From NCBI RefSeq assembly GCF_004216695.1, contig NZ_SGXC01000001.1:868001-932000 (forward strand): a stretch of DNA of 64,000 nucleotides, read 5' to 3'. A model generated the notes under the pieces. The model searched no databases, was not told the DNA's origin, and saw only the letters and a program-made list of their open reading frames with translations. This document shows, one piece after another, positions 13,751 to 33,113 of the stretch. The DNA is from Pigmentiphaga kullae. GTDB lineage: Bacteria > Pseudomonadota > Gammaproteobacteria > Burkholderiales > Burkholderiaceae_B. Within the stretch, counting starts at the first letter, position 1; every line of letters starts with the position of its first letter. A program made the translations under genes and the position numbers.

Positions 13751-13855
13751 CGCCCTGCCTCTGGTTGTCCCAGCCGCCAGACTAGGGCTCCACGGCCACG
13801 GCCTCAATCCGAGGAAGCAACAAGCGCGTATGTCCGTATGCAGTTGCCGGCGGCG

Positions 13856-13871
13856 CGGCCGTTAACGGCCG
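13856..13871. terminator. Palindrome downstream of acylase gene, possible terminator
   Basis: CGGCCGTTAACGGCCG is a perfect 16-bp palindrome six bases beyond the acylase stop codon. It could form a GC stem with a small loop, but no T-run follows, so intrinsic termination is uncertain. Confidence 0.3.
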
Positions 13872-13877
13872 GCCGGA

Positions 13878-16151: not shown

Positions 16152-16528
16152 GGCCGCCTGCCCTGCTTGCGGGCGATGACCTGCATCTCGACATGCGCAC
16201 CGGGATAGGCGATACCCGCGATCATGGCCGTGCCCGTGGGCTTGCAGGGCAGGTCGTCGGCCAGCACGCCGATGACCGGCTGGACGTGGGCCATGGCATC
16301 GATGATCAGCGTGTAGTTGACGATGTCCTCGAGCCGCGCGTCCGCCGCCTCCAGGTAGGAAGCGATGTTGCGCAGCATGAGACGCGTCTGCTCCTCGACC
16401 GTCGGCGCCAGTTTCTGCGCGGTGTAGTCCATGCCTATGGTGCCCGACACGAAGACCCAGTCGTCGTCGAACATGGCGCGGCTGTAGGGCGCGCGCGGGA
16501 AAGGCAGTGGAAAGTCCGCGATCTGCAT
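16148..16528 (-). CDS. RidA family protein (YjgF/YER057c/UK114)
   Basis: A 126-residue protein of the Rid superfamily, whose founding member hydrolyses reactive enamines or imines. Recognisable pieces are PYSRAMFDDDWVFVSGTIG near the N terminus, TRLMLRNIASYLEAADARLEDIVNYTLII in the middle and VEMQVIARK at the end. The usual catalytic arginine of the RidA clade (in IPxxRxxxE) is replaced by a PGAHVEM segment, so it belongs to another Rid clade. It lies between the Bug gene and the acylase with a four-base overlap with the latter, which suggests shared processing of an amide- or amine-containing compound. Confidence 0.85.
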   Translation of the reverse strand: MQIADFPLPFPRAPYSRAMFDDDWVFVSGTIGMDYTAQKLAPTVEEQTRLMLRNIASYLEAADARLEDIVNYTLIIDAMAHVQPVIGVLADDLPCKPTGTAMIAGIAYPGAHVEMQVIARKQGRRP

Positions 16529-16559
16529 GGTGGCTTGCTCCGTGATATGCCGTGATTGC

Positions 16560-17546
16560 TCAGTCGAGCTTGAAACCCAGCTTGCGAATGATGGGACCGT
16601 AGCGGTCCAGGTCGGTGGAGATCTGCCGCCGCAGGGTCTCGGGATCGTTGCGCGGCGCCGGCTCGAAGCCGAACGCCAGCAGTTTGTCGACCACGTCCGG
16701 CTGCCGGACCGCCCACTCCACCGCCCCGGCCACGCGCTGCGCGATGCCGGCGGGCAGGCCCGACGGCCCGACGATGGCGAACCAGACCGACATATCGATG
16801 CCCTTGAACCCCAGTTCATCGAGCGTGGGCACATCGGGCAGGCCGGAGAAACGCCGTGCCGAACTGACCGCCAGGAAGCGCGCGCGCCCGGACTTCACGA
16901 ACTGCGCATAGGGCGCGATCCCGTCGAAGGCCGCATCGACGGTGCCCGCCATCAGCGCCTGCGCCACCTCCGCGCTGCCCTTGAACGGTACGCGCCGGGC
17001 CTGCGTGCCGGCCGCGTCGTTGAACGTGTCCACCAGGATCTGCGAGACGATGGCCGCGGCGCCGATGTTCAGGTCGGCATCGGCGGACTTGCCGCGCTCG
17101 ACCAGGTCCGCCACGCTGGCCGGATCCCTGGGCTGGCTGCGCGCCACCACGGCGTTGGGGCCGATCACCGCCAGGGCCACCGGCGTGAAGTCCTTCTTCG
17201 GGTCGTAGGGAAGCTTCTCGTACAGCGCGGGATTGAGCACGAAGGTCTGGTCGATGGACCACAGCAGCGTGTAGCCGTCGGGCGGCGCGCGCAGCACTTC
17301 CTGCACGCCGATCAGCGTATTGCCGCCCGCCTTGTTCTCGACGATGATGGGCTGCCCCAGCCGTTCCTGCACCTTGAGCGCGATCAGGCGCGCTGCGACG
17401 TCCGCGCCGCCGCCGGCCACGAAGGGCACCACCAGCCGCACCGGACGAACCGGCCAATCGGCCGCCGCGGCGGCCGATGCCGCCAGTGCGCACCCCAGCG
17501 CGAAGCAGGCCCGCAGCAGGCGGCTGACATGCCGGACGTTCATCAT
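16560..17546 (-). CDS. Bug-family periplasmic solute receptor (TctC-like)
   Basis: A 328-residue receptor with a signal peptide (LLRACFALGCALAASAAAAAD) and the family loops VRLVVPFVAGGGADVAARLI and VENKAGGNTLIGVQE. The second loop has NTLIG where most relatives have GAGG, so ligand specificity probably differs. Two adjacent ATGs (17546, 17543) lie downstream of GGAG; either could be used. It starts a minus-strand unit Bug-RidA-acylase and is divergent from an AraC regulator, which suggests that it captures the acylase substrate or product. Confidence 0.92.
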   Translation of the reverse strand: MMNVRHVSRLLRACFALGCALAASAAAAADWPVRPVRLVVPFVAGGGADVAARLIALKVQERLGQPIIVENKAGGNTLIGVQEVLRAPPDGYTLLWSIDQTFVLNPALYEKLPYDPKKDFTPVALAVIGPNAVVARSQPRDPASVADLVERGKSADADLNIGAAAIVSQILVDTFNDAAGTQARRVPFKGSAEVAQALMAGTVDAAFDGIAPYAQFVKSGRARFLAVSSARRFSGLPDVPTLDELGFKGIDMSVWFAIVGPSGLPAGIAQRVAGAVEWAVRQPDVVDKLLAFGFEPAPRNDPETLRRQISTDLDRYGPIIRKLGFKLD

Positions 17547-17599
17547 TACACTCCGTCGGAAAGTTGCAGTGATGCTAACGTTCCGGCCCGAGGCCATGT

Positions 17600-18634
17600 A
17601 TGCAGATCGAATCGCAAACTGTGCCGATCCCCATCCCGGGTCCGGTGATGCGGGAAGACGACCTCAACGCCATCCTGGCCCCCTCGGCGCCGGAGCCGGC
17701 CGGCCTGACCCTGTCCGATATCCTGAGCGAATCGCGCCGCAACGTCCCCTGGCCCAGCGGCGGCCACGTCACGCGGCTGCATACGCTGCCGTGGGAAGGC
17801 GCCAGCGCCCGGTATTTCGACTTCAGCCTGGACGACCGCCTGCGGGTGCGGCTGGACCCCGACCGGGAGCTGCTGCTGACCTTCTTCCTGGAAGGCCATG
17901 TCAGCGGACACGTCGGCGACGAACACGGCCCCGAACTCGACTTCCGCCTGAACCGCATGCTACTGCGCACGCCCAATCGCAACGGCGGCTACCTCATCGA
18001 TATCCCCGGGGCCCGTACCCACCGCTTCGTGCAGTTCCGGCTGCGCCGCGACCTCTTGCCGCGCTGGCTCAAGGCACTGGGCGTGCGCCTCCCCGCCGCC
18101 CAGCTCGACGAGATGGTCGACCGCGACGATGGCCGCATCCTGTGCAACGCCGCCATCACGCCGCAATTGCAGGGCTGCCTGGAACGCATACGCGGCGAAC
18201 GCAGCGACCAGCCCGCCTTCGTGCCCCTCTTCCACGCGCGCGCCACCGAGCTGCTGCTGTGCGCGCTACAAGGATTCGACGACCTGCTGCGCCCTGTCCG
18301 CTCGCCCGGCGCCGATGCCGCCGCCGTCCTGGCACGATTGCGCGAAACCATCGCCGAGGCGCCGGCCCATCCATGGACGATCACCGAACTTGCGCGCCGC
18401 GTCGGCTGCACGAGCGCGCGCCTGCAGCAGCACGTGCGCGATGCCACCGGCCTTTCGGTCTACAACCTGCTGGTCGCCCAGCGGCTGGAGCTTGCCGCCA
18501 CGCTGCTGCGCGAGACCCGCCTGGGGGTGCAGGCGATCGCGGCCGAAGCGGGCTGGCAATGCCACTCGCGCTTCGCAGCCGTGTTCCGGGCGCACTACGG
18601 CAGCACGCCGCGGGCTTACCGGCTGCGCCAATGA
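17600..18634 (+). CDS. AraC-family transcriptional regulator
   Basis: A 344-residue regulator. The C-terminal 100 residues contain the two AraC helix-turn-helix units: AHPWTITELARRVGCTSARLQQHVRDATGLSVYNLL and GVQAIAAEAGWQCHSRFAAVFRAHYGSTPRAY. The N-terminal 220 residues are a ligand-sensing region of the type seen in PchR-like regulators (SGHVGDEHGPELDFRLNRMLLRTPNRNGGYL). It is divergent from the Bug-RidA-acylase unit with only 53 bp between start codons, so it probably controls that operon. Confidence 0.9.
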   Translation: MQIESQTVPIPIPGPVMREDDLNAILAPSAPEPAGLTLSDILSESRRNVPWPSGGHVTRLHTLPWEGASARYFDFSLDDRLRVRLDPDRELLLTFFLEGHVSGHVGDEHGPELDFRLNRMLLRTPNRNGGYLIDIPGARTHRFVQFRLRRDLLPRWLKALGVRLPAAQLDEMVDRDDGRILCNAAITPQLQGCLERIRGERSDQPAFVPLFHARATELLLCALQGFDDLLRPVRSPGADAAAVLARLRETIAEAPAHPWTITELARRVGCTSARLQQHVRDATGLSVYNLLVAQRLELAATLLRETRLGVQAIAAEAGWQCHSRFAAVFRAHYGSTPRAYRLRQ

Positions 18635-18655
18635 GTTAGGCGCGTCCTGGCACGC

Positions 18656-19615
18656 CTAGCGCGGATTTGCGTCGGCGAGCCACTGCCGCGCCAGAAAATC
18701 GATCAGCTTCTGCACGGCCGGGCTGCCGCCGTTCCCGAGTTGCAGCACACCCAACGGCGGCAATGCCAATAGCGACGGATCGGGCCACGCCACATCTATC
18801 TCGACCACTCGGCCGGCGCGCTGCATCTGATGCGCCACGCTGCGCGGCATGAAGTCCAGGAGGCCGCGTCGCTCTATGAGCGCGAACGAGAGCACGATAG
18901 AACGGGTGTCGATGGGATACAGCCTCGGCCGGTCACCGGTAGCCTCCCATATCTCGCTGAAGATCTGGACGGTCTGTACATCGGACGGCGGCTGGGCCCA
19001 TGTCTGGTCCACCAACGCCTCGATACCTACCCGCCCCTTATTGGCCAAGGGGTGGCTCGGGCCCGCGACGACGATCAACCGGTCCTCCAGCACAGGTTGG
19101 AAGCGGGCATTCAAGGCCAGGTTGGCCGGTTCGCGGCAAATGGCCAGATCGATGCGGCCCTCCGACAACAGCGCCGGGAGTCGCAGTGCCTCAGCCTCCT
19201 GGACGCGCGTCACGATGTCGGGATTGGCGTCGACGAAGTCCGGCAAGGCATCGGTGATGATGGCGGACACGCCCGCGGAAATCGAACCGACACGGACAAC
19301 ACCCCCGCGGCTATTGATCGTCGAGGCAACAGTAGTGGTACCGACCTTGATGGCATCGAGCGCGGAGCGTACGAGCGGGATGAGCGCACGCCCCTCGTCG
19401 GTGGGAGCCATGCCGCGAGTCTGGCGGAAAAAGAGGCGCACTCCCAGTAACTCCTCGATTTCTGCCAGCGCGTGTGTCGTCGCAGGTTGGCTGAGCCCCA
19501 CTGCATCGGCCGCCTTCTGCAGGCTGCCCAGCTCGGCGACGGAGGTAATGATCTGCAACTGCCGCAGCCTAGCCTTGCCCATCAGGCGATTGAACATCAG
19601 GTTCGCGGATATCAT
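18656..19615 (-). CDS. LysR-family transcriptional regulator
   Basis: A 319-residue regulator with helix-turn-helix at about residues 19-65 (LGSLQKAADAVGLSQPATTHALAEIEELLGVRLFFR) and a substrate-binding domain beginning near residue 105 (VVRVGSISAGVSAIIT). The RQTRGMAPTDEGRALIP segment places it near the GbpR/PcaQ group. It is divergent from the Bug-M28 gene set with about 35 bp between start codons, so promoters and operators must overlap coding DNA or be very compact. It is the obvious candidate regulator for the genes at 19651-26175. Confidence 0.9.
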   Translation of the reverse strand: MISANLMFNRLMGKARLRQLQIITSVAELGSLQKAADAVGLSQPATTHALAEIEELLGVRLFFRQTRGMAPTDEGRALIPLVRSALDAIKVGTTTVASTINSRGGVVRVGSISAGVSAIITDALPDFVDANPDIVTRVQEAEALRLPALLSEGRIDLAICREPANLALNARFQPVLEDRLIVVAGPSHPLANKGRVGIEALVDQTWAQPPSDVQTVQIFSEIWEATGDRPRLYPIDTRSIVLSFALIERRGLLDFMPRSVAHQMQRAGRVVEIDVAWPDPSLLALPPLGVLQLGNGGSPAVQKLIDFLARQWLADANPR

Positions 19616-19650
19616 TTCAGATGCTTGACAAGAACAGGAGGGGAAAGGCC

Positions 19651-20640
19651 ATGCCCATGCGCCCCGGGGATTTTCGGCGCGTCAGCCGCACCGGCATGCG
19701 GATGATAGCGGGTGGCTTGCTGGCTCTGGCATTGTTCGCGGGCGCGGCTGCCTACTATCGTCGGGTCGCAACTCCCGTCACTCTGATTGTGCCCTACGCG
19801 GCTGGCGGGTCGATGGATCTGTCGGCACGCGTGCTGGCCAAGCAATTGTCCGAAGCCCTGCGGCGGCAAGTGGTCTTGGAGTTCATCGGTGGGGCAGGCG
19901 GCATCTTGGCGGTGCAGAAGGTGCTGCACGCCAAGCCCGACGGCAATACGTATCTGTATGGTTCGGGTAATGCCGTACTGCTATCGCCCCTGCAGATCCC
20001 GGGCGCCGGTTTCACGAGCCACGACCTGGTTCCCGTTGCCCCCGTCAGCAGTTCGCATCTGACCTTGATGGCGCGTGCGGATCTCCATGCGCAGACGATG
20101 GACGAGCTCATCGAACTCGTTCGTCGCGAGAAGCGCCCCCTGATGATAGGCACGCCGGGAGCAAGCACGCTGCACCATCTGCTGGCACTTTCCATGGCCG
20201 CGCAACTCGGCGGCAAAGCGGAAGCGATACCTTATGTAAAAACATCGACCTTGCTGCAAGACCTGGGCGGCGGTCGTCTCGATCTGGCGATTCTCGCGCT
20301 GCCGGCCGCAACCGGCGTCGATGCCGCGCGGGGCAAGATACTCGGCCTGTTCAGCACCAAGCGCTCGCCCCTGTTTCCGGGCATCCCCACCGTCAACGAG
20401 AACGCGTCTCTGCGCTTCTGGGTCGTCGACCCCTGGACGGGCATATTTGCCCAGCGCGGCACGCCGCCTCGGGAAATCGCCCACATCAAACGCGCCATGA
20501 AGCGCGTGTTGATGTCGCCGGAGCTGTCTCGCGTACAAGCCACGCTGGGCGTGGTGTCGGCCGACCCCAAGAGCATCGACGGTTTCGATGCCTTGGTTGC
20601 TGCGGAAGCTCAGCGTTTTGCTGCGATGGTGAAGCACTAG
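19651..20640 (+). CDS. Divergent Bug-family solute receptor
   Basis: A 329-residue TctC-like protein, less conserved than the other Bug proteins here. The first loop is LIVPYAAGGSMDLSARVLA, but the second is EFIGGAGGILAVQK followed by KPDGNTYLYGSGNA, unlike the usual DGYTLL. The N-terminal hydrophobic stretch (MIAGGLLALALFAGAAAYY) may be a signal peptide or an anchor. The ATG at 19651 has AGGAGGGG upstream, whereas the in-frame ATG at 19621 has none. It leads the plus-strand set Bug, M28-like, Bug, PCuAC-like, M28-like. Confidence 0.85.
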   Translation: MPMRPGDFRRVSRTGMRMIAGGLLALALFAGAAAYYRRVATPVTLIVPYAAGGSMDLSARVLAKQLSEALRRQVVLEFIGGAGGILAVQKVLHAKPDGNTYLYGSGNAVLLSPLQIPGAGFTSHDLVPVAPVSSSHLTLMARADLHAQTMDELIELVRREKRPLMIGTPGASTLHHLLALSMAAQLGGKAEAIPYVKTSTLLQDLGGGRLDLAILALPAATGVDAARGKILGLFSTKRSPLFPGIPTVNENASLRFWVVDPWTGIFAQRGTPPREIAHIKRAMKRVLMSPELSRVQATLGVVSADPKSIDGFDALVAAEAQRFAAMVKH

Positions 20641-20651
20641 TCCGCATGGCC

Positions 20652-20674
20652 ATCCATTCAAATCTTGAATGGAT
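20652..20674. repeat. Perfect 23-bp inverted repeat after Bug gene
   Basis: ATCCATTCAA (20652-20661) and TTGAATGGAT (20665-20674) are perfect 10-bp arms around ATC, starting 12 bp after the Bug stop codon. It could be a transcript-stabilising or terminating stem-loop for the Bug mRNA, or an operator for the M28-like gene. No T-run follows directly. Confidence 0.6.
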
Positions 20675-20725
20675 TCGTGGAATTTTGCATTAGACCTGCG
20701 CGTGCCCCCTCCCTAAAAATGGCGC

Positions 20726-20745
20726 CGCATCCTTTCAAGGATGCG
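20726..20745. promoter_or_regulatory. Perfect 20-bp palindrome upstream of M28-like gene
   Basis: CGCATCCTT (20726-20734) and AAGGATGCG (20737-20745) are perfect 9-bp arms with two bases between, 30 bp before the M28-like ATG. Its location between the previous hairpin and the GGTGGAGG ribosome binding site fits an operator or a 5' UTR hairpin. Confidence 0.55.
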
Positions 20746-20775
20746 TAACCAATAAAACCAAGGTGGAGGCACTCA

Positions 20776-22647
20776 ATGAAAGCGAAGCGTTTGTCGCTCG
20801 CGGCGCTCTTGAGCTTGTCCCTCGTCGCATGCGGCGGTGGAGACGGTGCAAGCTCGGACAATACGCCGACCAACCCGGGAGACTCGCCCACAACGGCATT
20901 CGACCCGCGTCTCACGAAGATCGATCCTTCGCTCGTCATCACCCCCGCCGAAGCGCAAGGCTGGTTCGAGAAGAAGAACAGCTGGGGGCCGACCTACACG
21001 GGCTCGCCCGCCTGGAAATCGTTCATGGCGTTCCTTGAAGAGCGCCTCGTGGAATACGGCGCCCAGGGCCTGCACAAGCACAAATTCCCGTACGAGCGCT
21101 GGTATACGACCGAGTATCCGGATAAATCGGGATGGTCGCTGGTCTCGGATGGCACCCCGGTCGAGGTCGCGTCCTACGCCACGCAATCCGGCTCTACGGG
21201 ACCGCTGGGCGTCACGGCCCCCATGGTGCTCTATGACATGACGCTGCCCGCCGCCCAACGGCCACCCCTGAGCGCCCTGGCCGGCAAGATCGTCGTCGTC
21301 AAGCAGGCGCCATTCACCGGCAGCGGCACGACAGGCGGATACACGGACTATGAGTTCCGTACAGATCCTGACACTTTCCTCGAGCCGGGGGTCTTCGTCG
21401 ACCCGACCTATGAGGGCGGCTATCGCAACCGCAACCAGTTCGGCGCCATGGGCAGCGTGATCACGGGCGTGCTCAAGCCCTCGGGAGCGGTAGCCCATAT
21501 CGCGGTGCTCGACATGCCGCCCGGCGCGGCGCAGGGAGGCCGCCAGCACGGGACGCCGTCCCGCTACGAGGTGCCCGGTCTGTTGCTGGACAAGAAAAAC
21601 GGCGCCAAGGTGATCGAGGACGCGCGCGCGGGCAAGACGGCAACGCTCAAGCTGGATGCCAAGGTAGAAACCAATGCAACGGCCTTCCAGCTGATCGCGA
21701 CGCTTCCCGGCCGCGACTACGGCACATCCAAGGACAAAGCGGTCTTCATGGCCACGCACACCGATGGCCCAGGCCTGATCCAGGACTCCGGCGGGCTGGG
21801 CATCCTGGGAGTGATCAAGTATTTCTCGCAGATCCCGCAGTCCCAGCGGCCGATGAGCATCTACGTCTATCTCGACTGCCGCCATTTCGTGGCCGGAGCC
21901 GAACGAGGCGTGCCCTACGACTACATCCACGACAACCTGGAGACCCTGTCCAAGTACATCGTTGGCGGCGTCGCCATGGAGCACAGCGGCGGAGCTCAGA
22001 TGCACGACGTGGGCGACCGCTATGAGCCGACCGGCCGCGCGATGACCACGTACATCAACACCTACGGCAACGACCTCCTGGTCGAGAAGGCCATCGAGGC
22101 GGTCAAGGGCGCGAACCTGCCGCGGGCCCAGGTCAACGTGAATGACCGGCCCGGCGTGCACGGCCAACAACAGAACTCGTGGTTGGGCCGCAACTTCGCG
22201 ACCTACCTCGATGAGTTCGGTGGACGTCCTGTCTGGCACGTAACGGGAGATTGGCCAAGTTCCGGTTATCAGGCCTTTTACCCGGGGATCAACCGCTTCC
22301 GTTCGGACGTCTTCATCGCACAGGTGGAAACGGCGATCCAACTGGTAGGGACGGTAATGACGAGCGATCTGGTCGCGCTGAACCCCGATTGGGGCAAGCT
22401 CGGCAGCGCGCTGATCAATCTTGAGGACGACGACTTCAAGAGCCCCGGTTCCGCAACCGCGCAGCGCCAGGCATTGCAGGGCAAGCACAAGGAAATCTTC
22501 GATCTGGTGCGGACGGGCTCCTACGAGAAGGTCCCCGTACTGCTGGATGCCCTGTCGGCGGCCGTGACGGCGCAATTGGTCGAAGCCAGCGCCAAACCCG
22601 TCGACGAGCTGATATCCAGCGCGAAGTCCCGCGTGCCGACCACCTAG
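20776..22647 (+). CDS. M28-like metallopeptidase-fold lipoprotein with PA-type insert
   Basis: A 623-residue exported lipoprotein (lipobox LVAC, Cys19, then a Gly/Asp/Ser-rich tether). Residues 120-300 resemble a protease-associated insert (LYDMTLPAAQRPPLSALAGKIVVVKQ). The C-terminal half has M28-like elements: ATHTDGPGLIQDSGGLG (His328, Asp330, Asp337), DCRHFVAGAERG (Glu376), GVAMEHSGG (Glu402) and WHVTGDWPSSGYQ (His488). These could bind zinc, but the motifs are not canonical. Expected activity is extracytoplasmic peptide or amide hydrolysis. A paralog lies at 24247-26175. Confidence 0.75.
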   Translation: MKAKRLSLAALLSLSLVACGGGDGASSDNTPTNPGDSPTTAFDPRLTKIDPSLVITPAEAQGWFEKKNSWGPTYTGSPAWKSFMAFLEERLVEYGAQGLHKHKFPYERWYTTEYPDKSGWSLVSDGTPVEVASYATQSGSTGPLGVTAPMVLYDMTLPAAQRPPLSALAGKIVVVKQAPFTGSGTTGGYTDYEFRTDPDTFLEPGVFVDPTYEGGYRNRNQFGAMGSVITGVLKPSGAVAHIAVLDMPPGAAQGGRQHGTPSRYEVPGLLLDKKNGAKVIEDARAGKTATLKLDAKVETNATAFQLIATLPGRDYGTSKDKAVFMATHTDGPGLIQDSGGLGILGVIKYFSQIPQSQRPMSIYVYLDCRHFVAGAERGVPYDYIHDNLETLSKYIVGGVAMEHSGGAQMHDVGDRYEPTGRAMTTYINTYGNDLLVEKAIEAVKGANLPRAQVNVNDRPGVHGQQQNSWLGRNFATYLDEFGGRPVWHVTGDWPSSGYQAFYPGINRFRSDVFIAQVETAIQLVGTVMTSDLVALNPDWGKLGSALINLEDDDFKSPGSATAQRQALQGKHKEIFDLVRTGSYEKVPVLLDALSAAVTAQLVEASAKPVDELISSAKSRVPTT

Positions 22648-22740
22648 CCGGCAAGGCCTCGCTCGAAGGCCGGTGCAACACGCGCCGGCCGTCTGTTTCA
22701 GCCAGCCTCGCAGTCCCGCATCCCAACCAGGAGTACCAGA

Positions 22741-23721
22741 GTGTTCAAGCAAGCAGTTCTCATCGCGGCCCTGTCGGCCGCCATCGCCGGTCCACAGAGC
22801 GCCGGGGCGGCTCAGGATTATCCCAGCCGTCCGGTCACGATGGTCGTGCCGTTCGCGGCGGGCGGACCGACGGACATCGTGGCGAGATCGTTGGCCGAAG
22901 CCATGCGCAAGCCCTTGGGACAGACGGTGGTCGTGGAGAACCTTGGCGGTGCGGGCGGCACGCTGGGCACGGGCCGTGTCGCACGCGCCGCAGGCGATGG
23001 CTACACCCTGCTGCTCATGCACATCGGCTTCTCCACCGCTCCCGCGCTGTACCGCAAACTGCAATATGACCCCATCAAGGACTTCGAACCGGTTGGCCTG
23101 GCGGTCGATGTGCCGATGACCATGATTGCCCGGCATGATTTTCCGGCATCCAGTTTCGGCGAATTCCTTTCTTATGTGCGGGCCCACAAGAAAACCTTGT
23201 CGATGGCCAACGCCGGCATCGGCTCGGCGTCGCATCTGTGCGGCCTGCTATTCCTGAGCGCCATCGACACCGACGTGCAAACCATTCCGTACAAGGGAAC
23301 CGCACCGGCCATGAATGACATGCTTGGAAAGCAGGTCGACTTCATGTGCGACCAGACAACCAACACGTCAGGCCAGATCAAGGCCGACAAGGTCAAGGCC
23401 TATGCGGTGACGGCCATGACACGCATTGCATCGCTACCCCAACTGCCGACCATGGACGAAGCCGGCCTCAAGGGCTTCGAGGTCGGAATCTGGCATGGCC
23501 TGTGGGCCCCCAAGGGTACGCCGAAGCCGGTCATCGACAAGCTCGTGAATGCGATGCAGGCAGCGCTGAACGATCCGGCGTTCAAGCAGCGCATGTCCGA
23601 TCTTGGCGCCCAGGTCGAACCCTCCGGACGGGCCACTCCCCAAGCGCTCGATGCTCACGTCAAGAGCGAAATCCAGAAGTGGGGGCCCCTGATCAGGAAG
23701 GCCGGCATCTATGCCGATTGA
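22741..23721 (+). CDS. Bug-family periplasmic solute receptor (TctC-like)
   Basis: A 326-residue receptor beginning with GTG after AGGAG. The signal peptide ends near AGAAQDY. Family loops are VTMVVPFAAGGPTDIVARS and VENLGGAGGTLGTGRVARA followed by GDGYTLLLMH, and IPYKGTAPAMNDMLGKQVDFMCD in the second lobe. It lies between the two M28-like lipoprotein genes and is overlapped by 11 bp by the PCuAC-like gene, which argues for one transcript and for a receptor that collects products of those enzymes. Confidence 0.93.
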   Translation: MFKQAVLIAALSAAIAGPQSAGAAQDYPSRPVTMVVPFAAGGPTDIVARSLAEAMRKPLGQTVVVENLGGAGGTLGTGRVARAAGDGYTLLLMHIGFSTAPALYRKLQYDPIKDFEPVGLAVDVPMTMIARHDFPASSFGEFLSYVRAHKKTLSMANAGIGSASHLCGLLFLSAIDTDVQTIPYKGTAPAMNDMLGKQVDFMCDQTTNTSGQIKADKVKAYAVTAMTRIASLPQLPTMDEAGLKGFEVGIWHGLWAPKGTPKPVIDKLVNAMQAALNDPAFKQRMSDLGAQVEPSGRATPQALDAHVKSEIQKWGPLIRKAGIYAD

Positions 23722-24217
23722 CACCATGCGGGGCGGTTTCCCGCGGCAGTGCATGCGCACATGGTGCGCCCTTGCTCTTGTCGCGTCCACAACGGCGGTT
23801 CAGGCCGCCCCCGCGCTCTCTGTCGACACCGCGAGGGTGCGCCTGGGATCGCCCCCCGATAGCGCGCTCGCCTTCATGCAGCTGCGAGCCGGGCGCAATC
23901 TCTTCGACATCCGCGTCGCCTCGCCCTTTGCCGCCTCGGTTGCGGTGAGGGAAATGGTAAGAGCCGGCGGTCAGATCACCATCGAACCAGTGCCCGACTT
24001 TTCGATGAAGACGCAAGAAACCGCCACGCTCGAACTTGCGCCAGGCCACCGTCATTTGCTGTTGCGCGGCGTAAAACCCGGCCTGCGCGACAGGCGGCAG
24101 ATCCCGCTGACGCTCACGTACGCGCTCGAGCCTGGCGGCAGGCGACACAGCATCCAGGTACCGGCACGGGTGATTGGCCCGCGCCGTGGCGCCGACGATG
24201 CGCTCGATATTCATTAG
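23711..24217 (+). CDS. Exported PCuAC-like protein with degenerate copper site
   Basis: A 168-residue protein with signal peptide (MRTWCALALVASTTAVQAAP) and a domain that follows the PCuAC copper chaperone fold: ALAFMQLRAGRNLFDIRVASPFAASVAVREMV, ITIEPVPDFSMKTQETATLELAPGHRHLLLRGVKPGL and IPLTLTYALEPG. The copper-binding H/M pattern of the family is mostly lost (VREM instead of HEM, HRHLLL instead of HxM). The start at 23711 overlaps the Bug stop and has AGGAAGG upstream; an internal ATG at 23753 is an alternative. It precedes the second M28-like gene by 29 bp. Confidence 0.65.
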   Translation: MPIDTMRGGFPRQCMRTWCALALVASTTAVQAAPALSVDTARVRLGSPPDSALAFMQLRAGRNLFDIRVASPFAASVAVREMVRAGGQITIEPVPDFSMKTQETATLELAPGHRHLLLRGVKPGLRDRRQIPLTLTYALEPGGRRHSIQVPARVIGPRRGADDALDIH

Positions 24218-24246
24218 CCATGACACCAAGAGGGTAGGAGCCCTGT

Positions 24247-26175
24247 ATGAAAAAGACACTGCTGGTTGCATTGGTGACCGCGGCCTTCCTGACCGCATGC
24301 GACGGAGGCGGAGACGGGAGTGGACAACCAGGAACCGACCGGCCTGATGGTGAAGGCCCCACCGCATCGCCCCTGACCTCCATCGACGAAAACCTCCTGA
24401 TCACCAGGGCAGAAGCCCAGGAATGGCTGACGGAGAAAGACTCGTACGATCCCACCTATGCAGGCTCGGAGACCTGGAAGCACTACTTGGCTTCGCTGGA
24501 GACCAAGCTGCGCAGCTACGGGGTGGTGGACATCATTCAGTACGCCTTCGGCTACGACCGCTGGTACACGACGGAATGGCCGGACAAGAGCGGCTGGTCT
24601 CTACTGTCGGACGGAGTGCAGGTAGACGTGGCCTCGTACGCGATCAACTCGGGAGACACCGGCGTAAGTGGCGTAACCGCTCCCATGGTGCTATACGACA
24701 TGAACCTGCCAGCAGCGCAACGTCCGACGAAGGAAAGTCTGGCCGGAAAGATCGTCGTGTTCAAGCAGCAGCTGTATTCCTCGGTGGCGAGCGGCAGCGT
24801 GGGAGGCTATAGCAGTCCGTCGCTTGGCGACTACGAGTTCCGCAGCGATGAAGAGACCTTCCCGGCGCCAGGCGAGAAAATGCCGGTCGAAAAGGACGCC
24901 GATTACCGCAACCGTCAGCAATTGAACAATGCTGCGGCGCTGGGCATCAACGTGTGTCAGGCTGGCGGCGCGGTGGCGGCCGTATGGGTGCTGGACATGT
25001 CGCCGCTGGCCGCCCAGGGTGCCCGCCAGCACAGTACGCCGCGGATCTACGACTGCCCCGGCGTCCTCGTGGACCGGGTGGCTGGCGCAAAGGTCCTGGC
25101 CGATGCCGCCGCCGGCAAGATGGCCACCGTTAAGCTCGAAGGCGAGATCGAGAAAGATTCGCGCACATATCAGTTGGTGGGGTTCTTGCCAGGCCGCGCT
25201 TATGGCACGGAAAAGGACCAGCGAGTGCTGCTGTCCACGCACACCGATGGCATGAGCAACGTCGAGGACAACGGCGGACTGGGCATCGCGGCGGTGATTC
25301 AGTACATGTCGCGGGTGCCGCAGGCGCAGCGTCCACGCACGATCATGTTCTTCCTGGACAACCGCCATTTCGTTCCAGGTGCCGAAACGGGCGTGCCGTA
25401 CGACTACTTCGACGACTTCGAGCATGCGGCCGACAAGGTCGTCGGAGGTGTAGCGCTGGAACATTTCGGCGGCATGCAATTCGCGGAGAACGGCAACGAA
25501 TACAAGGCAACCGGCCTGCCTGCGCACACCTATGCGTTCACCTATCCCAATCCGCTGGCCATCGAAAAAGCCATCCAAGCGGTCAATGACGCGGGATTAC
25601 GCCGCGGTATCGTCACCGCTCCTACCGGCAACGGCTACAGCGGCCTGTACAGCAAGCCAGGCGTGCACGGCCTGAGCCAGGGTTTCTGGTTCGGCGGCAA
25701 TTTCATGTCGCCCTTGGCTGAGAACGGCCACCTGCCTGGCTGGCACGTAAGCGGCGACTGGCCCAGCGCAGGGTATCAGCACTGGGGGCCGGCTACTGGT
25801 GTACGGGTCGATCCCGAGTACTTCCGGATCAACGTGAAGACCGCGCTGCGCCTCGTCCAGACACTCATGACCGATGACCTGACCGCTCTCGCGCCAGACT
25901 GGGGCATCGTGCGCGCCAACATCGACGCGTTCACGGATGCGGACTTCGTGGCGGCGGGGGGAGCGGCCGCGGCCAAGACTACGATGCTGCGGTCTTTCGA
26001 CGCGATCTTCGCCAACACCAAGGCCGGAAAATATGACTTGGCGGCCAAGGATCTCCCGGCGTTGCGCCAACAGTTGGCCAACTCGGTGAAAGCGGCAGCC
26101 GGCAAGAACGCGCTGGCTGCGCTGGATGCCGTAATCAAGCTCGTCGGCCAGGGCCCCAACCTCCCTCCAGCCTGA
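24247..26175 (+). CDS. M28-like metallopeptidase-fold lipoprotein, paralog
   Basis: A 642-residue lipoprotein (lipobox LTAC, Cys18) collinear with the product of 20776-22647. The same candidate metal motifs occur: STHTDGMSNVEDNGGLG, DNRHFVPGAETG, GVALEHFGG and WHVSGDWPSAGYQ. It differs by a longer insert with LYSSVASGSVGGYSSP and extra NGNGYSGLY-type sequence near the C-terminal third, which suggests a different substrate. The pair must come from duplication of an ancestral gene. Expected location is the outer membrane or periplasmic face. Confidence 0.75.
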   Translation: MKKTLLVALVTAAFLTACDGGGDGSGQPGTDRPDGEGPTASPLTSIDENLLITRAEAQEWLTEKDSYDPTYAGSETWKHYLASLETKLRSYGVVDIIQYAFGYDRWYTTEWPDKSGWSLLSDGVQVDVASYAINSGDTGVSGVTAPMVLYDMNLPAAQRPTKESLAGKIVVFKQQLYSSVASGSVGGYSSPSLGDYEFRSDEETFPAPGEKMPVEKDADYRNRQQLNNAAALGINVCQAGGAVAAVWVLDMSPLAAQGARQHSTPRIYDCPGVLVDRVAGAKVLADAAAGKMATVKLEGEIEKDSRTYQLVGFLPGRAYGTEKDQRVLLSTHTDGMSNVEDNGGLGIAAVIQYMSRVPQAQRPRTIMFFLDNRHFVPGAETGVPYDYFDDFEHAADKVVGGVALEHFGGMQFAENGNEYKATGLPAHTYAFTYPNPLAIEKAIQAVNDAGLRRGIVTAPTGNGYSGLYSKPGVHGLSQGFWFGGNFMSPLAENGHLPGWHVSGDWPSAGYQHWGPATGVRVDPEYFRINVKTALRLVQTLMTDDLTALAPDWGIVRANIDAFTDADFVAAGGAAAAKTTMLRSFDAIFANTKAGKYDLAAKDLPALRQQLANSVKAAAGKNALAALDAVIKLVGQGPNLPPA

Positions 26176-26323
26176 CCGGCAAGGCATGCGCAGCGGGGTT
26201 GGACGCCTTGCCCGACCCCGCCCGCCGGCTCATATCCTGCTACAAATTCGTTGTTACTTGGCCGGTGCTGGACACGATTCTGCGGCAAACTGCACGGCTA
26301 GCAGTCTGGAGTTGGAGTCCAGC

Positions 26324-26644
26324 ATGACCAAGCCAAGCCTACGTTCCACCGCATCGCTGATCCTCGTCACCACCGCCCTGTCCTGGGGCTTGCCGGTGCG
26401 CGCCGACGATCTGCGCGAATCCGCGGGCGGCCGCGAGAGTTCCGTCGATACTTCCCCCCGCTCCTACGGCGGCAACGGATTGCGCCTGGGCGCCCGGACG
26501 CCCGCCTCCTCGGGCCTGGGGGGCAGCGGACTGCATGCCTCGCTGGACGCCACGGCCGCGACCGGCGCGCAGGCCGGTACCGGCAAGGCCGCCGTCCAGC
26601 AGCCTGCCCTGGGCACCCGCACGAGGAAGAAGGACGGGCGCTGA
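26324..26644 (+). CDS. Small exported protein, hypothetical
   Basis: A 106-residue protein with a signal peptide (STASLILVTTALSWGLPVRADD), then a Gly/Ser/Ala/Thr-rich low-complexity region and a basic end (TRTRKKDGR). No family or catalytic motif is recognised. It stands alone between the M28-like gene and the convergent fumarylacetoacetase gene. Composition suggests an unfolded periplasmic or surface protein. The ATG at 26324 gives a clean signal peptide. Confidence 0.6.
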   Translation: MTKPSLRSTASLILVTTALSWGLPVRADDLRESAGGRESSVDTSPRSYGGNGLRLGARTPASSGLGGSGLHASLDATAATGAQAGTGKAAVQQPALGTRTRKKDGR

Positions 26645-26666
26645 GCGGCGCCCGCCCGCTGCACGG

Positions 26667-27647
26667 CTAGGCCAGCGGCGCGATGCGCTGCTCGATCGCG
26701 CCGAAAACACTGTTGCCCGAGCGGTCGAAGTGCTCGATGCGCACCGTATCGCCGAACTTCAGGAACGGGGTCCGCGCCGCCCCTTGCCGGATGGTCTCCA
26801 GGGCGCGCCGTTCTCCCAGGCAGCCCACGCCCACGGATTCGTCCTCGTTCGACACCGTGCCCAGGCCCACCAGCGTTCCCGCCTCGAACGCGCGTGTCTG
26901 CGCGACGTGGGCGATCAGGTCCCCATAGTGGAAGGCGACGTCGGTACCGGTCTCGATGCTGCCCAGCTCCTCGCCGCGCACCCAGCATTTCATGGTGCCC
27001 GACACCAGCCCATCCTTCCATAGCTCGCCCAGTTCGTCCGGGGTCACCGCGATGGGCCCCAGGCTGGAGGCCGGCTTGCCGACCAGGAAACCGAAGGTAC
27101 GCTTGAGCTCGCCCGGAATGATGGCGCGCAGCGATACGTCGTTGAGCAGCACGAACAGGCGGATGTACCCGCACGCGCCCTTCGCGTCCACGCCCAGCGG
27201 CACGTCGCCGGTGATGGCGGCGATCTCGGCCTCGAAGTCGATGCCGTCGTCTTCAGAAGGCAGGCGCACGTCGTCGTTCCAGCCCATGAAGCCGTGCGAG
27301 ATGCCCTGGTACATCAGCGGTTTCTGGAAGAAGTCGTCGGGCACCGATTCGCCGCGCGCCTGGCGGTTGCGCTGGATGTGGCTGGGATAGGCCGCGCCGT
27401 CCAGGTACTGATAGGCGCGCGGCAGCGGCGCCGCCAGCGTGCCCAGGTCCAGCGCGAAGGCGCGGGCGGCACGGCCGGCGTTCAGGTCGTCGTACAGCGC
27501 CTGCAGGCGGGGGCTGGCGCGTTCCCAGTCGTCCAGCGCCGATTGCAGCGTGGGCGCGATGGCCGCGGCGCTCACCGCCGTGGCAAGGTCGCGGCTGACC
27601 ACGAGCAATGCGCCGTCGCGCCCCGCGCGTTGCGATGCCAATTTCAT
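26667..27647 (-). CDS. Fumarylacetoacetate hydrolase family protein
   Basis: A 326-residue enzyme of the FAA hydrolase superfamily. Metal-binding acids are expected in GIDFEAEIAAITGDVP and the GLVSGTMKCWVRGEELGSIETG region; QKPLMYQGISHGFMGWNDDVRLP is typical of the bacterial fumarylacetoacetase clade. In the homogentisate pathway it would split fumarylacetoacetate into fumarate and acetoacetate. It is the third gene of Bug-hmgA-fah on the minus strand, 60 bp after hmgA. Maleylacetoacetate isomerase, the intermediate step, is not in the window. Confidence 0.9.
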   Translation of the reverse strand: MKLASQRAGRDGALLVVSRDLATAVSAAAIAPTLQSALDDWERASPRLQALYDDLNAGRAARAFALDLGTLAAPLPRAYQYLDGAAYPSHIQRNRQARGESVPDDFFQKPLMYQGISHGFMGWNDDVRLPSEDDGIDFEAEIAAITGDVPLGVDAKGACGYIRLFVLLNDVSLRAIIPGELKRTFGFLVGKPASSLGPIAVTPDELGELWKDGLVSGTMKCWVRGEELGSIETGTDVAFHYGDLIAHVAQTRAFEAGTLVGLGTVSNEDESVGVGCLGERRALETIRQGAARTPFLKFGDTVRIEHFDRSGNSVFGAIEQRIAPLA

Positions 27648-27707
27648 TCCAGCTTCTCCAAGAGTGCGGCGCGCGGCCCCTTGCCGGCGCCAGATGATGT
27701 CCAGGTC

Positions 27708-29012
27708 CTAGACAGGATTGCCGGATCGGAATCCGTCCCAGACCTCGTCGTAGTCCGGCTGCAGGTTGGGCGCGGCCAGCGCCTGCGCCGTCGGGCGGTA
27801 CACGTGGCGGCTCTCGAACATGAAGGCCATGGTGTCTTCCAGCCGGCGCGGCGCCAGCGCCTCGGTGCTGGCGCGCTCGAAGGTGGCGGCGTCGGGGCCG
27901 TGCGGCAGCATGCAGTTGTGCAGGCTGATTCCGCCCGGCACGAAGCCCTCGGCCTTGGCGTCGTAGACGCCGCGAACCAGCCCCATCAGCTCGCTCATCA
28001 CGTTGCGGTGGAACCAGGGCGGACGAAAGGTGTCTTCCATGACCAGCCAGCGCGGCGGGAAGATCACGAAGTCGCAATTGGCGGTGCCGCCGATTTCCGA
28101 CGGCGAGGTCAGCACGGTGTTGATCGACGGGTCGGGATGGTCGAAGGTGATGCTGCCGATGGCCATGAAATGCGCCAGATCGTACTTGCAAGGCGTCAGG
28201 TTGCCGTGCCAGGCCACCACGTCCAGCGGCGACGACGAACGCTCCAGTTCCCAGAAGCCGCCCAGGAACTTGCGCAGGATGCGCACCGGCCCCGTCGCCG
28301 GCTCGCAGGCGGCGACCGGCGCCAGGAAGTCGCGCGGATTGGCCAGGCCGTTGGAGCCCAGCGGCCCCAGCTCCGGCAGCCTGAAGGGCGCGCCGTAGTT
28401 CTCGCACAGGTAGCCCCGCGCCGCGCCGTCGGGCAGGTCGATGCGGACATGCACGCCGCGCGGCAGCAGCAGGATCTCGCCGGGCGCCACCCGCAGGCGG
28501 CCCATCTCGGTATGCACGTCGAGCACGCCCGACTGCGGCACCACCAGCATTTCGCCGTCCGCGTTCATCAGATAGCGGTCGCGCATGGACGCATTGGCGC
28601 GATAGACGTGGACGGCGGTGCCGCTCTGGGTCTCGGCGCTGCCGTTGCCCGCCACGGTCACGATGCCATCGACGAAGTCCGTGCCCGGCACGGGCTCCGG
28701 CCAGGCATTCCACCGCAGCCGGTTGGCGGGCGCGGCCACTGCCGTGAACGGAGCGGTCAACCAGGCCGGATGCGCAACCGCATGGGCCTTGCCGTGCGCG
28801 GCGGAAGGCCGCACCCGGTAGGTCCAGGTGCGCAGGTTCACGGCGCGGGGCGCCGTGAACGCCGTACCCGAGATCAGTTCGGCGTACAGGCCGTGCGCCA
28901 CCCGCTGCGGCGAGTTGCGGCCCACGGGCAGCACGCCCGGGCTGGCCTCGGTCGCGAACTCATTGCCGAATCCGCTCTGGTACTGCGGCTCCGCCGCGAC
29001 TGCCCTGTCCAT
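27708..29012 (-). CDS. hmgA: Homogentisate 1,2-dioxygenase
   Basis: A 434-residue Fe(II) dioxygenase that opens the ring of homogentisate to maleylacetoacetate in tyrosine and phenylalanine breakdown. The sequence is strongly conserved from [13 protein letters not shown] at the N terminus to [12 protein letters not shown] near the end. Predicted iron ligands are His335 (WFHRNVMSE), Glu341 and His371 (MLPHGPD). The ATG at 29012 gives the usual N terminus. It lies 17 bp after the Bug gene and shares its direction, so the receptor, dioxygenase and hydrolase form one operon. Confidence 0.97.
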
Positions 29013-29029
29013 CCTGGCGTGCTCCCTGT

Positions 29030-29983
29030 TCAATTCGCGACGATGTTCGCCTGCTGGACGACTTTCTTCCAACGCGTGATTTCCGACTCGATCATGCTGC
29101 GCATCTGTGCCGGGCTGCTGCCGCTGGGCTCGCTGCCTATGTCGTTGACGGCCTTGCGAAACGCCGGGTCCTGGAGCATGGCGGCCAGCGCGGCGTGCAG
29201 GCGATCGACGATGGGGCCGGGCGTTTTCGCCGGCGCCGCGATGCCCAGCCACGAATACACCTGGAACCCGGGCACGGTGTCGGCCGCGACGGGAGCGCCG
29301 GGCAGCAGCGGCCACGGCTTGGCGCTGGTGATGGCCAGCGCGCGCATCGTGCCCGCCTTGATCTGCGGCGCGGCCACCGTTGCGGTATCCACCAGCACGT
29401 CCACGTCGCCAGCCAGCACGGCCTGCACGGGCGCGGCGCCACCGCGATACGGTACGTGCAGCATCTGCACGCCGGCCGTGGCGGCCAGCAGTTCGCCGGT
29501 CAGGTGCTGGGTCGAGCCCACGCCCACCGAGGAAAAGGACACCGTGCCCGGCTTGGCCCGCGCCGTCGCCAGCAGGTCGGCCAGCGTGCGCGCCGGGTTG
29601 TCGGCCTTGACGCTGACCACGAACGGAAATGCGGTCACGGTGGAAATCGGCTGGAAATCCGCGACCGGATCGTAGGGCAGCGACTTGTTCACCGCGGCCG
29701 ATACGGTATGGCCGCCGGTCAGCATCACCAGCGTGTAGCCGTCGGGCTCGGCCTTGGTCACGTAGCTGGACGCGACCACGCCGCCGGCGCCGCTCTTGAT
29801 TTCCACCACCACCGGCTGGCCCAGCGCCGCCTGCAGGTGCCGGGCCACCAGCCGCGACACGGTGTCGGCATTGCCGCCGGCGCCGAAGCCATGGATGAGC
29901 TGTATGGGCCGCTCGGGATAGGCCGCGCCTGCCGCGCCGGCCAACGCGGTCGCGAGAACCGCGCCGATGATCCGTTCGTACAT
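29030..29983 (-). CDS. Bug-family periplasmic solute receptor (TctC-like)
   Basis: A 317-residue receptor with signal peptide [20 protein letters not shown] and loops [20 protein letters not shown] and [19 protein letters not shown] followed by EPDGYTLVM. The first loop has HGFG in place of VPF, so it is a divergent subtype. The ATG at 29983 has AAGGAGGAG upstream. It heads the hmgA operon and is divergent from an IclR gene, so a role in capture of an aromatic acid feeding homogentisate is likely. Confidence 0.92.
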
Positions 29984-30013
29984 GATGGGGTCTCCTCCTT
30001 GTTCTTGCAGTGC

Positions 30014-30030
30014 TTTCCGCTGGCCGGAAA
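30014..30030. promoter_or_regulatory. Putative IclR operator in hmgA promoter region
   Basis: TTTCCG (30014-30019) and CGGAAA (30025-30030) are inverted arms with a five-base spacer, between the divergent Bug and IclR start codons. The 17-bp layout matches other IclR-type sites in this window. Function is inferred from position. Confidence 0.35.
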
Positions 30031-30110
30031 ATCCCGGTCGCACCGTGAAGGGCAATATATGATTGGCCGCAGGGGTAGACACCCGCATTTCCACTGAATG
30101 GACACGACTT

Positions 30111-30893
30111 ATGGCAAGCGGCAGCACCACGGCGGAGCCGGGCAGCATCGAACGCGCAGTGCAGTTGTTGAAGCTGCTGGCCACGGCCGGCAAGCGGGGC
30201 CGGGCCCTCACGCAGCTGGCCGAGGCCACGGCGCTGCCGCATTCCACGGTGCACCGGCTGCTGCGCCGCCTCATGCACGAGCACCTCGTCATCCAGAAAG
30301 AGTCGGACAAGTGGTACGCGCTGGGCCCGCTCGCTTTCGAGCTGGGACTGGCGGCCATGGCCGCCTACGACCTGCGCGAGCATTGCCGTGGCAGCCTGGA
30401 CCGGCTGGCCGAGGAGGTCGGCGACACGGTCTATCTGTCGGTGCGCAGCGGCAGCGAATCGGTGTGCGAAGCGCGGCACGAGGGGCCATCGCCGATCCGG
30501 GTGAACACGCTGTCCATCGGCAGCCGCCGGCCGCTTGGGCTGGGGGCGGGCGGACTGGCCATCCTGGCCTACCTGCCCGACGCCGAACGCGAGGACATCA
30601 TCGCGGCCGATGGCCGCCGCATCTGCGAGGAAGGCAGCCTGACCGAGGCCGACCTGCGCGCCGCCATCGAGGCCTGCCGGCGCCAGGGCCACTCGCTGAT
30701 CCGCAACCGCGTCACCCTGGGCGTCACCGCGGCCGGCGTACCCATACGCGACACGCTGGGCCGGCCCATCGCCGCCATCAGCGTGGCCGCCATCGACGAC
30801 CGCATGCGCGAGGAACGCGTGGCTTCGCTGGCCCGCCGGCTGCACGAGCACGCCAGAGAGATCGAAGGCTCTCTGCGGGGCCGGCCGGCCTGA
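30111..30893 (+). CDS. IclR-family transcriptional regulator
   Basis: A 260-residue regulator with winged helix-turn-helix ([19 protein letters not shown], then [28 protein letters not shown]) and an IclR effector domain ([64 protein letters not shown]). It is divergent from Bug-hmgA-fah and is the likely local regulator responding to homogentisate or a precursor. The ATG at 30111 is preferred over an upstream non-ATG codon at 30063. Confidence 0.92.
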
Positions 30894-30902
30894 AGCTGCG
30901 CG

Positions 30903-32003: not shown

Positions 32004-32053
32004 GGATGCCTCGTCTTGGTCGAATCGGCGCCATGCCAGCAAATAGCGTGCCC

Positions 32054-32077
32054 CGTGTCGGCATGCATGCCGACACG
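32054..32077. terminator. Perfect 24-bp palindrome between LysR and mscS-like genes
   Basis: CGTGTCGGCATG is followed directly by its reverse complement, a perfect 24-bp palindrome abutting the LysR stop codon at 32078. In RNA it would form a strong stem. There is no T-run after it on the minus strand, so it may be a rho-assisted terminator or a protein site for control of the channel gene. Confidence 0.5.
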
Positions 32078-33013: not shown

Positions 33014-33113
33014 ATATTTTTTTGCATGAATCGAGCCCGATTTTTCACTGGTTGCCACAGGGCGTCAATCCTAAGCTAGGCGCATCGACAGACACTTTGC
33101 ACAAGGACACGCC

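Follow-up and report, generated by a model that had tools for sequence, protein, structure and literature searches.

M28-derived proteins with an altered active site: two members of a widespread, unnamed family encoded beside Bug receptors in Pigmentiphaga kullae

The locus

Here we describe two related lipoprotein-like proteins, A and B, encoded by Pigmentiphaga kullae within a 64,000-nucleotide stretch of DNA (contig NZ_SGXC01000001.1, positions 868,001 to 932,000, assembly GCF_004216695.1; hereafter the window, to which all coordinates refer). They represent a widespread, unnamed M28-derived family with neither a Pfam nor an NCBIfam model. The initial annotation had pointed to five genes in the order Bug, M28-like, Bug, PCuAC-like, M28-like, with a divergent LysR gene, as a possible system. 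All of these genes are present, and Pfam supports the LysR, Bug and PCuAC assignments, the last one weakly though validly; the novelty lies in the site of the enzyme family, not in the five-gene layout.

18656-19615, minus strand: LysR-type regulator, divergent from the putative operon; PF00126 and PF03466 over cut-off
19621-20640, plus strand: Bug1, a divergent TctC/Bug binding protein; PF03401 at 126 bits (cut-off 27)
20776-22647, plus strand: M28-like lipoprotein A, 623 residues; lipobox-like LVAC-G, no Pfam family
22741-23721, plus strand: Bug2, a TctC/Bug binding protein with a GTG start; PF03401 at 230 bits (cut-off 27)
23711-24217, plus strand: divergent PCuAC-like protein, 168 residues; PF04314 at 35.5 bits (cut-off 29.4)
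24247-26175, plus strand: M28-like lipoprotein B, 642 residues; lipobox-like LTAC-D, with an AlphaFold2 model, a Foldseek match and a place in alignment A4
Residues H332, D341, H374, E405 and H406 of B: candidate site, from alignment A4
23734-26187: segment (PCuAC-like gene and B) without a counterpart in the sister species G196, from DNA comparison and junction sequences
26188-26225: GC-rich hairpin directly downstream of the PCuAC-B module, with no T run; the G196 sequence forms it too

Position 19651 is a possible alternative to 19621 as the Bug1 start codon. The gaps between same-strand genes from Bug1 to B are 135, 93, -11 and 29 bases, and on account of the short ones the last three genes (Bug2, PCuAC-like and B) look like a single transcript. 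The hairpin, which folds at -25.0 and -33.2 kcal/mol over about 60 bases, is not among the terminators called by a terminator scan.

Sequence, signals and selection

Over 632 aligned columns A and B share 47% identity, and no further copy of their family was found in the genome. Both begin with lipoprotein-type signals with a lipobox-like motif (LVAC-G in A, LTAC-D in B), and are probably exported and lipid-anchored. The residue directly after the lipobox Cys is Gly in A and Asp in B; in E. coli, an Asp at this place retains lipoproteins at the inner membrane. The earlier view of A and B as secreted M28-like lipoproteins with common, unusual candidate ligands is upheld, with export stated as probable. 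A helical C-terminal extension of ~100 residues (~545-642 in B) is seen in A, B and their orthologs, and is mostly absent from the other rows of alignment A2.

Neither protein matches a Pfam family at E 0.1, PF04389 (M28) included, and NCBIfam returns only low-score N-terminal matches far below cut-off. Across the family, PF04389 matches four of 44 members at E 0.01 and two of 13 at E 0.1, whilst DUF4910 (PF16254) matches none of the 44 at E 0.01 and one of the 13 at E 0.072. In a literature search to which subscription journals were mostly inaccessible, no paper was recognised as describing the family.

The ortholog of A in G196 is 97% identical, with a ratio of nonsynonymous to synonymous substitution rates (dN/dS) of 0.032, the lowest of seven neighbouring genes compared; the other six lie at 0.067-0.113, with Bug1 at 0.090. 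Bug2 and the LysR regulator are 93.5% and 93% identical to their G196 counterparts. A, Bug1, Bug2 and LysR are thus under purifying selection, and A most strongly so.

An M28 fold with a changed active site

Profile comparison by hhalign of the A/B family against 28 M28 proteins with an EE-type motif gave a probability of 99.3% (E 8.4e-21); these 28 were EE-type-motif loci from N-terminal matches of the phylum search described below, and four loci of the P. kullae genome itself were scanned too. The best profile match in the PDB is the M28 peptidase 3iib (5.4e-14). The AlphaFold2 model of B (predicted local distance difference test score 78.9, predicted template modelling score 0.83) places BSAP first in Foldseek, with E 4.4e-18 and a template modelling score of 0.68 by target length, and the top matches are BSAP, 2ek8, 3iib, PSMA and the transferrin receptor. 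BSAP, 3iib, PSMA and the transferrin receptor carry PA domains. A PA domain is also described for 2ek8 (PMC4000134). As for the PA-type insert proposed initially, the fold matches and Pfam PA matches in five of 44 family members speak for it, but Pfam finds no PA domain in A or B. Taken together, an M28 fold with a PA-like lid is well supported as being kept in both proteins.

The same holds for the alteration of the active site. In M28 peptidases, sites 2, 3 and 5 commonly hold one zinc, and a second is held by sites 1, 2 and 4 (PMC7522609); here, site numbers were assigned to motifs by order and recall. We aligned the families by hhalign in 30 subsamples, each of 12 out of 26 M28 proteins. 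H332 (B numbering) pairs with the labelled first His of M28 in 29/30, and with another or an unlabelled His in the remaining one, whilst D341 pairs with Asp in 28/30 and with Asn in 2/30. H374 pairs with the M28 general-base Glu in 29/30, and F375 with the site-3 ligand Glu in 26/30. Our initial manual pairing matched H374 to the latter Glu of the EE pair in M28, and it was the subsampling that pointed to the first.

Conservation was read from alignment A4, which holds A, B and 42 of 74 parsed relatives, thinned at 72% identity and passed through a motif filter using HTDG and EH. H332, T333, D334, G335, H374, E405 and H406 are each found in 44/44 rows; position 341 is Asp or Glu in all 44, and 43 rows have Phe at position 375, the remaining one having Met. 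H374 and F375 played no part in the selection of relatives. No His at site 5 was found, the lists of conserved A4 positions holding no His beyond 406. In alignment A2, made with no motif filter, H328, H370, E402 and H403 of A are kept in 13/13 rows, and three plasmid-borne relatives outside A4 have Leu or Met at position 375. Five loci with mis-called genes (L070, L081, L107, L116, L119) were missed by the motif filter and three more (L067, L093, L111) fell outside the A4 length range; all eight have the motifs when read in the matched frame.

The common spacing of candidate metal ligands seen at first between A and B is therefore real and not due to chance, as the pattern HTDG...(E/D)(N/S)G...HF...EH extends to distant relatives. 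The idea of an M28-like metal site fares less evenly: the fold is there, but the general-base Glu and two of the five zinc positions are gone. These alignments show that sites 1, 2 and probably 4 are preserved, that the general base is lost along with sites 3 and 5, and that two His are new. In view of the changed residues, we do not class either protein with the M28 peptidases. A Herbiconiux protein (L021:2965-4404) that is annotated as an M28 family peptidase has the same His-Phe and Glu-His pairs, and its gene adjoins an amidase gene.

Likeness to known M28 relatives

A and B share with M28 of clan MH (BSAP/YwaD 6hc6, 2ek8, 3iib) the fold, the PA-type insert, the first His and the bridging acid. 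M28 has a catalytic Glu, a site-3 Glu and a site-5 His, whereas the A/B family has His, Phe or Met, and no conserved His, respectively. The single-zinc glutaminyl cyclases are alike in having an M28 fold and one metal, as would be predicted for A and B. However, their zinc commonly occupies sites 2, 3 and 5 (PMC7522609), whilst the A/B family would use 1, 2 and probably 4, sites 3 and 5 not being found.

A further comparison is offered by the DUF4910 protein CA_C2195, described as M28-derived with a PA-like insert, a lost catalytic Glu and one zinc, held by H189, D195 and H324, and with Ser and Pro at the catalytic positions (PMC4000134). Compared with it, the A/B family mostly keeps the Asp, has His for Glu and is without the last His. 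DUF4910 sets a precedent for a one-zinc M28-derived family that lacks the catalytic Glu, albeit with other residues. Likewise, GPAA1 has been modelled as a single-zinc M28-type synthetase with a changed ligand set and Pro at site 1 (PMC7522609); the likeness lies in the M28-type fold and the changed ligands, and the difference in the site-1 His that the A/B family keeps.

Distribution of the family

Among 268 genomes of the bacterial family to which P. kullae belongs, seven matched: its own, G196 (the A ortholog), the genus member G193 (a B ortholog at 57% identity), three distant relatives and one spurious N-terminal match. L009 (G080), whose match is limited to a short N-terminal lipoprotein-like stretch, was dropped. 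Plasmid searches added distant relatives in Rhizobium, Novosphingobium, Bradyrhizobium, Rhodococcus and Herbiconiux; a plasmid protein search with A gave 32 records, none reaching 80% query coverage, and a phage search with B gave no match. A first scan of genome contigs with alignment A1 found no relatives, and a scan with a conserved-motif alignment (HTDG and EHLG patterns) found 194 pattern stretches, 181 of which are relatives; the best 80 of these relatives make up the genome-collection loci used below.

The rows of the resulting tree span six phyla: Pseudomonadota, Bacillota, Actinomycetota, Chloroflexota, Spirochaetota and Bacteroidota. At E 1e-30, the window genome was the sole match in an order-level sample of 399 genomes, and a class-level sample of 369 held one match besides it. 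A search of the phylum matched 29/398 genomes at E 1e-10, mostly over the N-terminal part only; full-length matches came from the window genome and one Rhizobium-like genome, the protein ends of which are identical to those of Rhizobium. With six phyla reached and so few matches in the order- and class-level samples, the family is wide yet patchy.

The tree holds 56 proteins, including four M28 proteins, and unites A, B and the two orthologs in a single clade (100/100), within which A groups with its G196 ortholog (100/99) and B with that of G193 (99/92). This pairing indicates that the duplication predates these species.

Two modules within the genus

G196 is collinear with the window over 13031-23733 (89.6% identity) and 26188-33591 (93.4%), the two matches meeting in L012. 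It keeps Bug-A-Bug and is without the 2.45-kb PCuAC-B stretch, the junction falling just past the Bug2 stop and the B stop. The segment would have been either gained or lost. In G193, where no A was found, B is followed by a PCuAC gene (58.9 bits for the protein), in the order opposite to that of the window. The layout is therefore one of two modules, Bug-A-Bug and PCuAC-B. A fixed five-gene system, as first envisaged, does not survive: G196 is without exactly PCuAC-B, and G193 has B and PCuAC with no A. We rejected the five-gene unit because its parts are carried separately by these two species and because, as set out below, none of 80 distant loci has Bug or PCuAC neighbours.

All 11 genus genomes (P. 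kullae and ten others) encode a strong PCuAC protein (133-141 bits), and extra copies occur beside B in P. kullae (36 bits), beside B in G193 (59.8 bits), and in G195. The divergent form is thus present in 2/2 genus genomes with B, adjoining it in both, and in 0/9 without B. The extra copy of G195 is a second strong one (135 bits), and no M28-like copy was found there. The two divergent proteins are 23% identical to each other, and their very long branches make their placement in the tree unsure.

The copper motif of PCuAC proteins is H(M)x10Mx21HxM (PMC7558416), and 11 strong genus copies compared, with that of G198 left out, keep H, M, H and M. The window protein passes the PF04314 cut-off as PCuAC chaperones do, but has R, I, H and L at these positions, so that three of the four motif ligands are replaced; in the G193 protein the first His is Leu, the middle Met is retained and the HxM pair is shifted by one residue. 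Since its ligand positions are mostly replaced, we have downgraded the window protein as a copper donor. This fast-evolving partner of B may aid B in folding, metal holding or partner finding.

Neighbourhoods of relatives elsewhere

The initial proposal was also open to a survey of gene neighbourhoods, and here it fails, as homologs lie mostly outside Bug or PCuAC settings: neither type of neighbour was found at any of the 80 genome-collection loci (flanks of up to 8 kb per side; home-made profiles, E 1e-4). At loci from the bacterial family of P. kullae itself, a Bug gene lies within 20 kb in 5/5, as Bug abundance predicts.

Elsewhere, AMP-binding proteins (acyl-CoA ligases) account for 6/78 operon neighbours, a family count covering 78 of 152 listed neighbours. 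The neighbour survey left out ten near-identical Rhizobium loci (L053-L062). Clustering of neighbours in 90 loci, some of them close kin, gave acyl-CoA ligases (8), TonB receptors (5) and an old-yellow-enzyme-type flavoprotein of Clostridia (8), and an amidohydrolase and a carboxylesterase are further neighbours. The Sphingobium relative adjoins an amidohydrolase whose best NCBIfam match, below cut-off, is Xaa-Pro dipeptidase. Tandem copies with uptake genes occur in Novosphingobium (two look-alike records) and in a gammaproteobacterial metagenome-assembled genome.

Several individual loci deserve description. In L017, L066 and L069, M28-like genes in tandem are accompanied by those for a TonB receptor and an acyl-CoA ligase, which parallels the pair in the window. 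In the Clostridia loci L117, L118, L127 and L128, the copy is flanked on its two sides by an aconitase X gene (tested in L117) and the gene for the old-yellow-enzyme-type flavoprotein (a cluster member tested in L089), the latter followed in L118 by two 2-hydroxyacyl-CoA dehydratase-type proteins. On Rhizobium plasmids such as p42d (L010:5451-12513), the M28-like gene has a tyrosinase with a small protein on one side and a DUF3141 gene on the other, and DUF3141 is adjacent to the Bradyrhizobium copy too. The Rhizobium protein between the tyrosinase and the M28-like gene was considered as a PCuAC candidate and, on reading, is not PCuAC-like.

The Bug-LysR setting and surrounding genes

Ten Bug-type proteins (five of which had seeded the search profile) are encoded in the window, against 57 called genes, and at least 150 in the genome, where 150 of 422 candidates were scored. 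That the M28-like genes are interleaved with Bug genes is thus true but weak as a sign of association. The genome has seven TctA genes and the window none, so no complete tripartite tricarboxylate transporter lies beside the receptors. Orphan receptors of the Bug type are reported to be encoded alongside catabolic genes, and some Bug proteins bind amino acids (PMC5812351). The two Bug genes resemble such receptors in their PF03401 domain, the LysR gene alongside and the lack of TctA in the window; unlike the usual ones, they flank an unnamed enzyme family and not a known catabolic gene. The evidence supports placing A and B in a Bug-LysR setting typical of orphan uptake loci.

A penicillin-amidase family acylase of 757 residues (PF01804; 13878-16151, minus strand) lies 3.5 kb upstream, making it a second amide hydrolase nearby, and its G196 counterpart begins with a lipoprotein-like signal. 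Directly downstream (26667-30358, minus strand) are genes for a fumarylacetoacetate hydrolase, a homogentisate 1,2-dioxygenase and a further Bug protein, a tyrosine-type catabolic set.

Discussion

We tentatively favour the explanation that A and B act in the periplasm as hydrolases, releasing an amide- or ester-linked small acid and thereby supplying orphan Bug proteins. The peptide- or amide-linked substrate of the initial proposal may also apply. This reading draws on the catabolic neighbours found elsewhere, and on the placing of Bug proteins as orphan receptors near catabolic genes (PMC5812351). Of the two-zinc M28 site, only the half made up of sites 1, 2 and 4 (H332, D341 and E405 in B) would remain, with the invariant H374 replacing the catalytic Glu and the Phe after it replacing the site-3 Glu. 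One metal could then polarise the amide or ester bond, whilst H374, with H406, could either perform acid-base work or complete the metal sphere. The orphan Bug proteins would bind the small acid so released and pass it for uptake to a TctAB unit whose genes lie elsewhere, with LysR in control, and B with its fast-evolving PCuAC-like partner would act as a separable two-gene module.

Several points weigh against this explanation. E405 pairs with an acid in only 14/30 subsamples, being unaligned in 14 and paired otherwise in two. The conservation of HTDG and EHLG in A4 is partly selected, since these motifs were used to find or filter relatives, and the B ortholog of G193 has HTEG where others have HTDG, so that D334 is not universal. 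A and B also depart from their own family: the Glu of a GEGQ-like motif, present in 41/44 rows, is absent from both, and the residue before H374, Gly in 42/44 rows, is Arg in both, such that their activity may be altered. As regards the setting, Bug genes are so common that Bug neighbours are weak evidence of function, and neighbours vary so widely among phyla that no single substrate follows from them. As for transcription, no promoter-like site was found, and the count of terminator-like sites, nine against 5.3 in shuffles (standard deviation 2.4), is within noise.

Could the neighbourhood simply be accidental, with the roles of A and B unrelated to the adjoining Bug and PCuAC genes? About one in six window genes is a Bug gene, and most relatives have other neighbours. 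However, the divergent PCuAC tracks B, Bug genes on both sides of A are kept in G196 (though the genomes are close), and uptake genes lie beside other tandem pairs elsewhere; we consider an accident unlikely. We judge it similarly unlikely that A and B are M28 homologs without catalytic activity whose role is to bind a ligand or a partner protein, much as the transferrin receptor and nicastrin are dead members of this fold. The loss of the catalytic Glu and of two zinc positions, the Foldseek match to the transferrin receptor, the equally degenerate PCuAC-like partner and the divergence of A and B from their family at two more near-site positions would all fit such a role. Yet H374 stands in 44/44 rows though it was no search criterion, linkage to catabolic enzymes recurs, and purifying selection on A is strong.

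More doubtful still is the possibility that B is a metalloenzyme, perhaps copper-dependent, that relies on the divergent PCuAC-like protein as a dedicated chaperone for its metal. Among the 11 genus genomes, this protein occurs only in the two with B, adjacent to it and in opposite orders, the site of B is rich in His, and the G193 copy retains its middle Met and a displaced HxM. On the other hand, the window protein retains just one of the four copper ligands, Leu replaces the first His in the G193 copy, and PCuAC neighbours are found at 0/80 loci of other family members. Least probable of all, A and B would be ordinary two-zinc M28 aminopeptidases or carboxypeptidases feeding peptides or amino acids to the Bug proteins, a reading that the M28 and PA-type fold, the lipoprotein-type signals, the Bug neighbours and the amino acid binding of some Bug proteins (PMC5812351) would suit, but against which stand the presence, in 44 rows, of His for the general-base Glu and of Phe or Met for the site-3 Glu, the lack of a conserved His past 406 and the absence of a Pfam M28 match for A or B.

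Returning to A and B as hydrolases, we posit, with less confidence than we give that reading itself, a broader possibility: that the family has rebuilt the M28 two-zinc site into the half-site opposite to that of glutaminyl cyclase (sites 1, 2 and 4), with a catalytic or metal-binding His for the general-base Glu and a new reaction on amide- or ester-linked metabolites, and that in one genus a protein that was once a copper chaperone has been taken on as its dedicated partner. If so, a common fold would harbour an active-site design that has gone unrecognised in many bacteria of soil, plants and gut, where annotation misses such proteins or would name them peptidases. Residues H332, D341, H374, E405 and H406 of B form a short list that is open to direct testing. 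Orphan Bug receptors would also gain a concrete enzyme partner, and a copper-chaperone fold would apparently have been reused.

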